A stretch of 64,000 nucleotides of DNA, taken from positions 930,001 to 994,000 of the forward strand of contig CU207211.1 of the NCBI GenBank assembly GCA_000026125.1, given 5' to 3'. The DNA is from Herminiimonas arsenicoxydans (GTDB lineage: Bacteria > Pseudomonadota > Gammaproteobacteria > Burkholderiales > Burkholderiaceae_D). The translations under genes were made by a program, and so were the position numbers. Numbering within the stretch: the first letter of the stretch is position 1; every line of letters starts with the position of its first letter. Below the pieces are notes generated by a model that saw nothing but the letters and a program-made list of their open reading frames with translations, was not told the origin of the DNA and did not search any database. Shown here piece by piece: positions 1,050-36,150 of the stretch.

Positions 1050-2441
1050 ATGTCTGATGAAACTCGATCTGGAGACATGATCAAGCAGGAATGGTTGACG
1101 AAGGTTGGGCTGAGCCTGGCCTTGTTTTTGCTCGTGCTGATTTCTTTTATCACTTTTAACAGTGTCGATCAGTTTGCGAGTAGTTCGCGCTTGGTTGAGC
1201 ATACACATTTAGTTATCAAGCAAATTGATCAAGTCGTCTCTGACCTGAAGGATGCCGAATCCACGCAGCGTGGATACCTGATTACCGGTGACGGGATTTT
1301 TTTGAAGACGCATTACGACATTCTTGCGCAGCTCCCTAGTCAGATTGCCACTTTACGAGGACTGACCTATGACAATCCTGCACAGCGAAAATCGATTGAT
1401 GTATTTGAGGGCTTGATCGATAAAAAAATAGCTGTCATGCGTTCGGGGATTAATGCTCTGGAGGAGAGGAACGCATTTCATAGTGATGAAATCGCTGCCT
1501 TGGTGGGCGGTGAGGGCCGGCTGGCGATGGATCAGTTAAGAGAGCAGAGCTCTTTGATGATCATGGTGGAAGAAAAATTATTGCTGCAGCGTGCGCAAGA
1601 GGTTGAGGCCAAGGCGAGATCGACCAAATTGTGGATTCTATTCGGTAATCTGCTGGCGATTGTGCTGCTGCTTTCCGCCTTCTGGCTGATCTTGTGGGAA
1701 ATAAAACATCGCAGGAGAGCGCAACGCAAGATAGAAAAAAATGCAGCGCAACTGGAATTGACGAACAAAGAACTGGAGAGCTTCAGCTATTCGGTTTCGC
1801 ATGATCTGCGCTCTCCTTTACGTGCGATCGATGGTTACTCGCGCATGTTTGAAGAGGATTTCGCCGATCGTCTTGACGATGAAGGCCGCCGTTTGCTGTC
1901 AGTGATTCGTGTCAGTAGCAAGAAGATGGGACAGTTGATCGATGATTTGCTGGCCTTCTCGCGGATGGGGCGCAAGCCGGTCGACAGCGCGAAGGTCGAT
2001 ATGAATGCTTTGGTTGATGAGGTATGGACGGAAGTGTGCGCCAGTTCCAAGACTGTATTGCCTTTGAAGAAGACAAACTTGCCGGCCGTATGGGGCGATC
2101 AGGCCTTGTTACGACAGGTATGGATGAATCTGCTGGCGAATGCAGTCAAGTACAGCAGTAAAAAAGAAGAGCAGATAGTCGAGATCACGGCAAAACAGAG
2201 CGAACATGAAGTGGTGTACACAGTGCGCGATAACGGCGTGGGTTTTGATATGCGCTTCTATAACAAACTGTTTGGTGTTTTTCAGCGCTTGCATACCGAA
2301 AATGAATTCCCGGGCACGGGTGTCGGTCTGGCGATTGCACAGCGAGTGATTGTGCGGCACGGCGGGCGGATCTGGGCCGAGAGCAAACCGGATGAATATA
2401 CGATTTTCAATTTCAGCTTACCTAAAGAGGCCGTCGCATGA
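1050..2441 (+). CDS. Membrane sensor histidine kinase with CHASE3 domain, 463 aa
   Basis: Transmembrane segments at about residues 19-37 and 194-216 flank a periplasmic four-helix CHASE3-type domain (contains the typical [14 protein letters not shown] stretch at 68-81). A cytoplasmic HisKA domain follows with H-box HDLRSPLR (phospho-acceptor H251), then a HATPase domain with N-box [12 protein letters not shown] and G boxes DNGVGFD and GTGVGLAIA. The catalytic core resembles the kinases that pair with Rcp1-type regulators. It autophosphorylates on His and most likely passes phosphate to the regulators encoded directly downstream. The next gene overlaps its stop by 4 bp (ATGA). Ribosome-binding evidence at 1050 is weak; an alternative in-frame ATG at 1077 has GGAG only 4 bp ahead. 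Confidence 0.9.
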
Positions 2442-2884
2442 ATGAAGATATGCAACCAGTTCATATTCTTCTCGCCGAGGATACACCTACCGATGCGGAG
2501 ATGACCTTGCGCGCGCTCAAGAAGGTAGGCCTTGTCAACAACATCACATGGGTCAAGGATGGACAGGAGGCGCTGGACTACATTTTTCGCAAAGGCGAAT
2601 TTGCCAATCGCGTTAACGGCGATCCGACATTGATCATGCTTGATCTGAAAATGCCCAAGGTCAATGGACTGGAAGTACTCAAGGCGATCAAGACAACGGA
2701 ATCGACCAGAATCATTCCAGTCATCATGCTGACCTCCAGTGCAGAAGAGCCGGATATCGTGCGCTGTTATGAACACGGTGTGAACAGCTACATCGTCAAG
2801 CCGGTTGAGTCGGACAAGTTTTTTGAAGAAGTTTCCAAGGCGGGTTTCTATTGGGCTATCTTGAATAGAATTCCTGCAAGATAA
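2438..2884 (+). CDS. Rcp1-type single-domain response regulator, 148 aa
   Basis: This is a stand-alone receiver domain: acidic pocket E14/D15, phospho-acceptor D69 in MLDLKMP, switch Ser/Thr in MLTSS and the conserved Lys in VKPVES. The long loop before the acceptor ([16 protein letters not shown]) is typical of the Rcp1 subfamily that works with phytochrome-like and CHASE3 kinases. No output domain is fused, so it probably acts by protein contact or as a phosphate shuttle to the next gene product, whose own receiver starts with almost the same VEDTPTDAE motif. It overlaps the kinase gene by 4 bp and lies 23 bp before the next start. Confidence 0.92.
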
Positions 2885-2907: not shown

Positions 2908-5364
2908 ATGATCAAAATCCTGATGGTCGAAGATACGCCTACCGATGCCGAACTTGCGTCGCGTGAGTTGAAGCGTAGTGGCATTCTGCACCAGGCAAGA
3001 CGGGTGGAAACCGAGCAGGAGTTGCGACATGAACTTGCAGACTTCAAGCCGGACGTTGTGTTGTCGGATTTTTCCATGCCGCATTTTGATGGATTGTCTG
3101 CGCTCAAGGTTGTGCGACAGGAGTTGCCGGATACGCCGTTCATTTTCGTTTCAGGCCGGATTGGCGAGGAACTGGCGATCGAATCCCTGAAGCTCGGCGC
3201 GAGCGATTACGTGATCAAGACAAATCTGTCGCGTTTGCCGAGCGCGGTTACCCGCGCGATGGAGCATGTGGAACAAAGAGATGCGCGGCGTCGCATTGAA
3301 ACGGAACTGCTGGAGAGCAATCTGATGTTTCGCACCTTCATGGAGAATCTTCCTGGTGCTGCCTTCATCAAGGACCAGGATGGCCGTTATCTGTACTGCA
3401 ATCACGGTTTGGACAAGGCATTCAATGTCGAAAAGGGTTGTTCCATCGGCAAGCTGGATACCGAACTGGTTCCGCTTGAAGTGGCGTACAAGCTGCGCGA
3501 AATGGAAGCCCGGGTTCTGAAGGCAGGTACGGCTCTGCAGGAACTGGAAGTCATGTCGATGCCGTCCGGCGCAAGCTACTGGTTGTCGACGAAATTTCCC
3601 TTGGTTGGAGAAAACAGCGACTCACAGCACGTCGGCGGCATTGCGATCGATATCACCGAGCGCATGAAGGTCGAGCAGGATCTGTTGTTGCGCACACGTG
3701 CCATCGAGGCGTGCGTCAATCCTATCGTGATCGTGGATACGGCAACGCCGGGCATGCCGCTGATTTATGTCAATGGCGCGTTTGAAACCATCACTGGTTA
3801 TTCCAGCGAAGAGGCGATAGGACGTAATTGCAAATTTCTGCAGGGCATGGATACCGATCAGCCTGAGCTGGGGAAATTGCGTGCGGCGATACGGGAACAA
3901 CGCCCGGCTTCGGTCTTGCTGCGCAACTATCACAAGGATGGCAGCATGTTCCTCAACGAGTTGTATATCGCACCGGTCAGTGATACCTCGGGCGGCGCAG
4001 TAGGCCATTTTGTAGGTGTGCTGTATGACGTGACCCAGATAAAACGCTATCAGGAAGATCTGGAGCATCAGGCCAATTACGATACGCTGACAGGACTTGC
4101 CAATCGCAATCTGCTTAATGAACGGACGCAGCAGGCGCTGCTCCAGGCGCGTCGTCACGATCATTTTCTCAGCCTGGTTTTCATCGATCTCGATAATTTC
4201 AAGCTGGTCAATGACAGCATGGGGCATGGCGCAGGCGATGAGTTGATCGCCAATGTGGGTTCGCGTTTGCAAACCTGTGTACGTGACGGCGATACCGTTG
4301 CCCGTATCGGCGGCGACGAGTTCGTGCTGCTGTTGACGAATCAGAGTGTGAGTGACAGCAATGCAGGCGTGATGCAGCGTATTCAGGCGGAACTTATCAA
4401 GCCGATGTGGATACGCGGGCAGGAAATTGTCGTGACCTGCAGCATGGGTGTAGCCCGTTTCCCCGAAGATGGCGAAGATTCGGAATCGTTACTCGCCAAT
4501 GCCGATACAGCCATGTACAGAGCCAAATCGAGCGGGCGCAATAATTTCCAGTTCTATACCAAAGAGATGAATGCGACCTCGGGCGAACGCCTCTCGCTGG
4601 AAAGTGATTTGTGGCATGCATTGAAGAATGACGAGTTATTTCTGGTCTATCAGCCGCAAATCGATTTGCGTGATGGCACAGTCATAGGAATGGAAGCGCT
4701 GATCCGTTGGCAACATCCGAAACGCGGACTGATTGCCCCGATGGATTTTATTCCGATGGCGGAATGTAATGGTTTGATCATCCCGATCGGAATATGGGTA
4801 CTGGAGACGGCTTGCAGACATAATCTGCAATTGCAGAAGGAAGGATTGCCGCCGATACGCGTAGCAATCAATTTGTCTGCTCGTCAGCTGAGCGACAGGA
4901 ATTTCGTCGAGAGTGTGCAAAGCGTGATCGAAGCGATCGGCCTCGATCCGCATTATCTGGAACTCGAAGTAACCGAAAGCATGGTGATGCACAATGTCGA
5001 AGATGTGGTGGTCACGCTGAATGATTTGAACAAGATGGGGATTCAATTATCGCTGGACGATTTTGGCACCGGATTTTCCAGTCTGGCCTATCTGAAGCGC
5101 TTCCCTATCGATCGCCTCAAGATTGATCAATCCTTCATTTTCAATTGCGACAGCGATCCCGGCGACGCGATCATTGCACAAACCATCATCGCATTGGCGC
5201 ACGGGCTGAAGATCAAGGTGATTGCGGAGGGAGTGGAAAAATCCGAGCATCTAAGCTTCCTCAAGAAGAATGGTTGCGATGAAGGGCAGGGCTATTTCAT
5301 CAGCAGGCCGTTGACGTTCGATGATTTGCGCATGTTTCTGCTGACAGGAAAAAATCCTCACTGA
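2908..5364 (+). CDS. REC-PAS-LOV-GGDEF-EAL cyclic-di-GMP signalling protein, 818 aa
   Basis: Domains in order: receiver (1-125; E8/D9, phospho-acceptor D54 in LSDFSMP), PAS (about 138-255), LOV-type PAS (about 268-380), GGDEF (388-552) and EAL (560-818). The LOV domain has GRNCKFLQG with the flavin-adduct cysteine C308, plus the flavin-contacting N340 and N350, but L372 where the usual glutamine sits. The cyclase site GGDEF (468-472) is intact with an RxxD inhibitory site (R459-D462) five residues ahead. The phosphodiesterase motifs MEALIRW, DDFGTG and IAEGVE are also intact, so both activities are possible. The ATG at 2908 was chosen over a GTG at 2887 because GAGGG precedes it by about 10 bp. 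It is the last gene of the operon and is followed by a terminator. Confidence 0.95.
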   Translation: MIKILMVEDTPTDAELASRELKRSGILHQARRVETEQELRHELADFKPDVVLSDFSMPHFDGLSALKVVRQELPDTPFIFVSGRIGEELAIESLKLGASDYVIKTNLSRLPSAVTRAMEHVEQRDARRRIETELLESNLMFRTFMENLPGAAFIKDQDGRYLYCNHGLDKAFNVEKGCSIGKLDTELVPLEVAYKLREMEARVLKAGTALQELEVMSMPSGASYWLSTKFPLVGENSDSQHVGGIAIDITERMKVEQDLLLRTRAIEACVNPIVIVDTATPGMPLIYVNGAFETITGYSSEEAIGRNCKFLQGMDTDQPELGKLRAAIREQRPASVLLRNYHKDGSMFLNELYIAPVSDTSGGAVGHFVGVLYDVTQIKRYQEDLEHQANYDTLTGLANRNLLNERTQQALLQARRHDHFLSLVFIDLDNFKLVNDSMGHGAGDELIANVGSRLQTCVRDGDTVARIGGDEFVLLLTNQSVSDSNAGVMQRIQAELIKPMWIRGQEIVVTCSMGVARFPEDGEDSESLLANADTAMYRAKSSGRNNFQFYTKEMNATSGERLSLESDLWHALKNDELFLVYQPQIDLRDGTVIGMEALIRWQHPKRGLIAPMDFIPMAECNGLIIPIGIWVLETACRHNLQLQKEGLPPIRVAINLSARQLSDRNFVESVQSVIEAIGLDPHYLELEVTESMVMHNVEDVVVTLNDLNKMGIQLSLDDFGTGFSSLAYLKRFPIDRLKIDQSFIFNCDSDPGDAIIAQTIIALAHGLKIKVIAEGVEKSEHLSFLKKNGCDEGQGYFISRPLTFDDLRMFLLTGKNPH

Positions 5365-13397: not shown

Positions 13398-13452
13398 CGT
13401 CTTTCAAAATGAATGGCAGGTCAGCAGATGTCATGCCTGTGAATGGCGATGG

Positions 13453-13550
13453 ATTGCATGCTTTCCTGCGCGAGGATTACCTCAATCAGGTTCAACGGGT
13501 ATTTCTCACCCGCGCATATTTTCCGCGCAGGACCCCGAGCCGAGAGTCTT
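13453..13550 (-). ncRNA. TPP (THI-box) riboswitch
   Basis: Read on the minus strand, the element has the classic order: CTCGGGGTCC near the 5' end, GGGTGAGAAATACCC, the invariant TTGAACCTGATTGAGGTAAT core, and a closing CGCGCAGGAAA arm. It ends about 55 bases before the cytX start, so it most likely controls cytX translation or early termination in response to thiamine pyrophosphate. Confidence 0.95.
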
Positions 13551-33383: not shown

Positions 33384-33412
33384 TTGCCGCTGGATCGCAT
33401 GCGCCGTACAAT
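33384..33412 (+). promoter_or_regulatory. Promoter of the first cobalamin riboswitch unit
   Basis: TTGCCG and TACAAT hexamers with a 17-bp spacer give a predicted start at about 33419, exactly where the riboswitch homology begins. The same arrangement is repeated at 35911-35939. Confidence 0.7.
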
Positions 33413-33414
33413 GG

Positions 33415-33640
33415 CGCAGTTTTGGTGCTCGCGGACATGTCCATGTCTGCAGTTAAACGGGAAACGCCAAGCCGCAAGGCCAAGGAGTGCTGCCCCCGCA
33501 ACGGTAAAACAAGCGTCACGGTATTGCGTGACCAATCGTCTTTTTACACCACTGTGCCATTGCATGGGAAGGTGAGACGGTTTGCTTGTCAGCCCGGATA
33601 CCGGCCGGAACAGGTGAAAGCAAGACGGGCGGGGAGTTCG
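33415..33640 (+). ncRNA. Cobalamin riboswitch 1
   Basis: Contains the conserved blocks in order: TTTTGGTGCTCGC, GGGAAACGCCAAGCC, GTGCTGCCCCCGCAACGGTAA, CCACTGTGCCATTGCATGGGAAGGTGAGAC-type segments, and the B12-box AGCCCGGATACCGGCC. It controls the TonB receptor gene starting at 33757, presumably blocking expression when adenosylcobalamin is plentiful. The 3' border is approximate. Confidence 0.95.
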
Positions 33641-35910: not shown

Positions 35911-35939
35911 TTGTCGGGAGGTGTTGCGGGACGTACAAT
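35911..35939 (+). promoter_or_regulatory. Promoter of the second cobalamin riboswitch unit
   Basis: TTGTCG-N17-TACAAT, matching the first unit's TTGCCG-N17-TACAAT in both hexamers and spacing. The start would fall near 35946, at the first base of the riboswitch. Confidence 0.7.
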
Positions 35940-35941
35940 GT

Positions 35942-36150
35942 CGCCAGTTTTGGTGCTCGCAGACATGTTCATGTCTGCAGTTAAACGGGAAACACGAAGC
36001 TTTACGGCTAACGTGTGCTGCCCCCGCAACGGTAATCAAGCGTCACATATCTGTGACAGGTCGTCTCTTAAACCACTGTGCATTTGCATGGGAAGGTGAG
36101 GCTATCGTGCTTGCAAGCCCGGATACCGGCCAGGACAGGTGGAAATGCTG
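35942..36150 (+). ncRNA. Cobalamin riboswitch 2
   Basis: Same block order as riboswitch 1: TTTTGGTGCTCGC, GGGAAACACGAAGC, GTGCTGCCCCCGCAACGGTAA, CCACTGTGCATTTGCATGGGAAGG, and AGCCCGGATACCGGCC. Peripheral arms differ in length and sequence. It precedes the second btuB-type gene. After it, the leader keeps a short segment (CCTGCGGGGAAG) also present after riboswitch 1. Confidence 0.95.

Follow-up and report, generated by a model that had tools for sequence, protein, structure and literature searches.

The protein encoded at positions 2908 to 5364 of the window (the whole stretch of 64,000 nucleotides analysed here, positions 930,001 to 994,000 of Herminiimonas arsenicoxydans contig CU207211.1) is probably, judging from its sequence, a functional blue-light receptor of the LOV-deltaQ kind, whose LOV domain lacks the usual signalling glutamine and would control a GGDEF-EAL output. 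We favour this reading because a leucine stands exactly at the glutamine position of a domain whose adduct cysteine and flavin site are intact and conserved throughout a clade, because the domain is under purifying selection, the catalytic motifs are intact and the gene order is conserved, and because a Mesorhizobium LOV-deltaQ-GGDEF fragment and leucine variants of YF1, NmPAL and AsLOV2 respond to light (Dietler et al. 2022, PMC9098866).

Gene and domain organisation

The gene is the third of three on the same strand, laid out as follows.

1050..2441 (+), CHASE3 histidine kinase, gene 1 of 3, upstream of the LOV gene
2438..2884 (+), single-domain response regulator, gene 2 of 3, its start codon overlapping the kinase stop
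2908..5364 (+), REC-PAS-LOV-GGDEF-EAL gene, 818 amino acids from the ATG at 2908, coding to 5361, stop codon to 5364
2917..3243 (+), receiver (REC) domain, residues 4-112, Pfam E-value 3.6e-17
3343..3663 (+), PAS domain, residues 146-252, Pfam PAS_4
3709..4047 (+), LOV domain, residues 268-380, containing GRNCKFLQG and FVGVLYDVT
4027..4089 (+), LOV-GGDEF linker of 21 residues, Asp374 (in DVT) to Leu394 (in DTLT)
4072..4545 (+), GGDEF domain, residues 389-546; I-site RDGD at 459-462, GGDEF motif at 468-472
4606..5310 (+), EAL domain, residues 567-801, with EALIR (596) and DDFGTG (717)

The ATG at 2908 is common to 7/7 orthologues; starting instead from the in-frame GTG at 2887 would lengthen the protein by 7 residues. 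Asp54 of the string LSDFS (codon 3067-3069) is the likely phospho-acceptor of the receiver domain, and SDFS is present in 8/8 sequences. The GGDEF motif and the I-site are intact in all eight sequences and the exact string EALIRW in seven of them, and with GGDEF, I-site and EAL catalytic motifs the protein has the motif set predicted for a bifunctional GGDEF-EAL enzyme. Two NCBIfam assignments were rejected: phosphodiesterase DibA, which ranked first for the full-length protein, scored 544 against a cut-off of 980, and YtvA_fam scored 128 against a cut-off of 250. The order CHASE3 kinase, response regulator, LOV gene was found in 8/8 genomes (the window and 7/7 relatives' loci). Elsewhere, the window carries two cobalamin riboswitches separated by about 2.3 kb (33406-33623 and 35934-36148, +) and a TPP riboswitch (13446-13547, -) with a score just above the gathering threshold.

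A LOV domain with leucine in place of the signalling glutamine

The active-site positions were obtained by mapping onto AsLOV2, by motif alignment and by comparison within the clade described below.

3721..3723 (+), Pro272, aligned with AsLOV2 N414 (alignment)
3829..3831 (+), Cys308, the adduct cysteine, equivalent to AsLOV2 C450 (AsLOV2 mapping)
3925..3927 (+), Asn340, a flavin asparagine, equivalent to AsLOV2 N482 (AsLOV2 mapping)
3955..3957 (+), Asn350, a flavin asparagine, equivalent to AsLOV2 N492 (AsLOV2 mapping)
4021..4023 (+), Leu372, replacing the signalling glutamine, equivalent to AsLOV2 Q513 (motif alignment and AsLOV2 mapping)
4024..4026 (+), Tyr373, adjacent to Leu372, fixed in the leucine clade

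The domain has the PAS-type LOV fold, the adduct cysteine within GRNC.FLQ and the two flavin asparagines, and the glutamine usually found on the last strand is replaced by Leu372. The first-pass annotation had recognised a LOV domain with GRNCKFLQG in residues 268-380 of a GGDEF-EAL protein and had placed Leu372 at the LOV glutamine; the AsLOV2 mapping bears out the cysteine codon and both asparagines, and the alignment together with the mapping to Q513 puts the leucine exactly at that position. Because of Leu372 the domain is placed in the Gln-less subset of LOV domains: it has no active-site glutamine, and it retains 8 of the 9 named conserved residues of which the published LOV-deltaQ rule asks for at least 8 (PMC9098866), the exception being Lys309 in place of arginine.

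That the glutamine is displaced elsewhere through an error of alignment, or that the leucine is an error of assembly, has next to no likelihood. The motifs align without gaps with those of solved LOV domains, in agreement with the AsLOV2 mapping, and leucine is encoded by different codons in 7 other genomes (CTG 6, TTG 1 and TTA 1 across the eight). Nothing speaks in favour of such an error and we rule it out; the gene is neither an error nor a decaying copy.

Conservation within the close group

The orthologue is present in 8/13 genomes of the genus group, its own included; the named species among the relatives comprise Herminiimonas fonticola and three members of Oxalicibacterium, alongside metagenome bins. 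From the window protein and the best 120 of its 331 homologues we delimited a close group of 46 rows (the window and P0002-P0046), in which the adduct cysteine occurs in 46/46 rows, Leu372 in 45/46 (isoleucine in the remaining one), and Tyr373 and a proline at position 272 in 46/46 each. Of the 113 LOV columns in this 46-row group, 56 are invariant and 57 variable. At the site of AsLOV2 R451 the window protein has Lys309, and 18 of the 46 rows (again from the best 120 of 331 and the window) have asparagine; either residue may weaken flavin binding. Position 373 is N, K, Q or H in a hand-picked set of 13 sister rows, and positions 264, 271, 274, 295 and 337 likewise mark the close group against that set.

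A quick 97-row tree was made with residues 308, 372 and 373 masked (of 121 rows, 115 had 480 residues or more counted from the start of LOV, and removing identities above 97% left 97). In it, the 36 non-redundant rows of the close group form one clade (SH-aLRT 100) beside mostly Gln-bearing relatives. Four relatives (P0118-P0121) have tryptophan at the cysteine position and leucine at the glutamine position and have thus lost both signature residues; three of them read GRNWSFL ... FVGVLND.

Across 6 pairs from 4 close genomes, dN/dS was 0 to 0.051 for LOV, 0.027 to 0.077 for GGDEF, 0.026 to 0.099 for EAL, 0.018 to 0.084 for REC and 0.069 to 0.115 for PAS, the ratios being rough as many dS values approach or exceed 1. 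They indicate that purifying selection on the LOV domain is similar in order to that acting on GGDEF and EAL and exceeds that on PAS. This selection and the 8/9 retained signature residues tell against a LOV domain that is uncoupled from output or locked in its dark state, with its photochemistry intact or lost, serving as a dimerising spacer while the receiver domain controls the enzyme. Such a spacer would suit the kinase and regulator genes adjoining the LOV gene, the lower dN/dS of REC than of LOV in 5/6 pairs and the loss of about half of the signal in engineered leucine variants (PMC9098866); on balance we consider it quite improbable.

Loss of the glutamine among wider relatives

To the search with the window protein we added two Gln-less queries, and the best 120 of 331, 6311 and 5648 matches gave a set of 329 rows, in which the Gln-less share is biased by the choice of queries and differs from a natural frequency. 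Within this query-biased set glutamine is absent from 231/329 rows, 191 of the 231 retaining the cysteine and 40 lacking it, and among the Gln-bearing rows of the same matches 71/98 retain the cysteine. By the published rule of at least 8 of 9 residues, 280 of the 329 rows are LOV domains, and the 191 of them that are Gln-less have leucine in 169 cases, isoleucine in 13, serine in 6, valine in 2 and alanine in 1 (among the matches listed, with the same query bias). Leucine with an intact cysteine prevails in three groups among these matches: the clade of the window protein, a Burkholderiales group (cysteine without glutamine in 62/72 rows) and a Pseudomonas group (61/73), the latter two being delimited as ranges of row identifiers and not as tested clades. 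The glutamine site has changed at least 9 times on the 97-row tree and at least 10 times on a second tree restricted to Cys-bearing rows (those of the 329 reduced to 235 by a length and GG filter, then to 124 by removing identities above 88%), both trees being quick, with several long branches flagged.

A flavin redox or oxygen sensor, in which N5 is protonated by reduction to the semiquinone and not by light and Cys308 is kept for structure or redox chemistry, is an unlikely reading of this site. We know of no need for the adduct cysteine in a pure redox sensor. The cysteine is moreover invariant in the 46-row close group (best 120 of 331 and the window) although half of the LOV columns vary there. 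On the other side, 40/231 Gln-less relatives among the matches listed have lost the cysteine, and Dietler et al. argue that redox-active flavoproteins may be the ancestors of LOV domains and that Cys-less LOV domains signal when photoreduced (PMC9098866).

Three candidate associations with the loss of glutamine were tried and set aside. Loss of the cysteine does not accompany it in any supported way: the 97-row tree gives 4 independent pairs, with on average 0.1 changing the same way and 0.4 the opposite way, too few to decide, and the raw counts among the matches listed run slightly opposite (191/231 against 71/98). Residue 274, equivalent to AsLOV2 V416, a site tuning recovery, is valine or isoleucine in 177/191 Gln-less but 30/72 Gln-bearing rows among the Cys-bearing matches listed (AsLOV2 included in the latter); covariation found no support on the second tree, made with the trait residues masked, where 5 independent pairs on starred branches, too few to reach 0.05, gave an average of 1.7 the same way against 1.1 opposite (median p 1). 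Tyr373 was considered, too, as a possible compensating residue; position 373 differs in no more than about one of 4 independent pairs, and its fixation is reported as description only.

Comparison with published LOV proteins

Some 350 natural LOV proteins that lack the glutamine, mostly with leucine and isoleucine, have been reported, and Gln-less proteins are also counted as LOV receptors (PMC9098866); a LOV-GGDEF-EAL is among those already described. In the same work, activity with a natural Mesorhizobium loti LOV-GGDEF fragment carrying methionine for glutamine was 145 Miller units in darkness and dropped to 30 under blue light, and engineered leucine variants of YF1, NmPAL and AsLOV2 bound flavin, formed the adduct and absorbed further to the blue, with dark recovery slowed 10-fold, 1.2-fold and 22-fold, respectively. 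The first-pass annotation had stated that Gln-to-Leu changes weaken or alter signalling, which fits these variants: the signal amplitude is about half in YF1 Q123L and AsLOV2 Q513L, and NmPAL Q347L keeps a light response in a reporter assay, impaired relative to wild type (PMC9098866).

The window protein resembles the M. loti LOV-deltaQ-GGDEF-EAL protein WP_140774521.1 (PMC9098866) in its cysteine, flavin site, missing glutamine and GGDEF-EAL output, and differs from it in having leucine instead of methionine, N-terminal REC and PAS domains and adjoining kinase and regulator genes. Its 21-residue linker falls in the short class of LadC proteins, for which PMC10396304 gives 21 or 35 residues from D(I/V)(T/S) to DxLT; unlike LadC, which consists of LOV and GGDEF only (MsLadC structure 8c05), it adds REC-PAS before and EAL after and lacks the glutamine, and so departs from the two-domain architecture. 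With AsLOV2 and YtvA it shares the fold and the adduct site, and its leucine is placed as in the engineered Q513L and Q123L; in contrast to all of these, the leucine here occurs naturally and has become fixed in a clade, and Pro272 occupies the N414 site of AsLOV2. No experimental work on the window protein, spectrum or activity included, was found among the open-licence papers listed in the literature searches.

Light-related loci of the host genome

A 2014 review credits H. arsenicoxydans with three proteins of the LOV-GGDEF/EAL type and a single short BLUF (PMC4844311). The host genome encodes a second Cys-intact LOV-GGDEF (G000:C1:2391532-2391840, -), which differs from the window protein in having the glutamine (FIGIQKDVT), a 35-residue linker and an adjoining BLUF domain (2392068-2392349); therefore blue light plausibly serves this host as a signal. 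Both lie in a compact light-signalling cluster (about 2390032-2393340, -) of an EAL protein, the Gln-bearing LOV-GGDEF, BLUF and a regulator of the MerR type that carries B12-binding domains. A CHASE-PAS-GGDEF-EAL protein has a LOV-like domain (G000:C1:631516-631848, +) that keeps the glutamine (VVQYDIT) and has leucine at the cysteine position (GVNLCFLWG), and by these residues is the mirror image of the window LOV domain. A search of the host genome for the PHY family gave no match.

A proposed route from light to output

The first-pass annotation had left two branches side by side, a natural blue-light receptor that does without Gln and signals by another route, or a flavin binder that senses redox or is dark-locked; conservation and the published experiments on other proteins (PMC9098866) make the first the best explanation and the second less likely. 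For a functional Gln-less receptor, FMN would bind the LOV domain, and blue light would form the Cys308 adduct and protonate flavin N5. With no glutamine side chain involved, the signal would then be handed to the last strand and its DVT motif, probably by a transient water as Dietler et al. propose, and pass from DVT through the 21-residue linker to shift the GGDEF-EAL balance. Gene and domain order suggest that the receiver domain, fed by the neighbouring kinase and regulator pair, would add a phosphorylation input, so that the c-di-GMP output would combine light with the stimulus of the CHASE3 kinase. The leucine should blue-shift absorption and delay recovery in the dark; whether light raises or lowers the output is not predictable from sequence.

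Given a functional photoreceptor, we put the chances of a water relay at about even. Dietler et al. favour it, and the crystals of Q513L have no ordered water near N5, so that the water relay is itself a model (PMC9098866). Pro272, present in 46/46 close-group rows (best 120 of 331 and the window), means that the N414 relay of AsLOV2 cannot operate here. This proline, the approximately halved amplitude of the leucine variants (PMC9098866) and the lysine or asparagine at the R451 site count against a functional receptor.

As the glutamine site has changed at least 9 and at least 10 times on the two trees and leucine with cysteine prevails in three groups among the matches listed, we tentatively suggest, as a possibility short of an even chance, that Gln-less signalling is a repeatedly fixed and selected design in LOV-GGDEF-EAL proteins. 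The window protein could then be a slow receptor integrating dim light, its signal leaving by a route without the N414 relay, perhaps by way of Tyr373, fixed in this clade, or along the backbone of the strand, and gated by the phosphorylated receiver domain.

Significance

The evidence on Gln-less LOV signalling in PMC9098866 comes mostly from engineered variants, and the sole natural case tested there has methionine. A clade with leucine and cysteine, with Gln-bearing relatives and proline at the N414 site, offers a clean natural test of water against backbone against sterics, for which the Gln-bearing LOV cyclase of the same host is an internal control. The window protein is a good natural example of the known Gln-less LOV sensors, and not a new kind of sensor.
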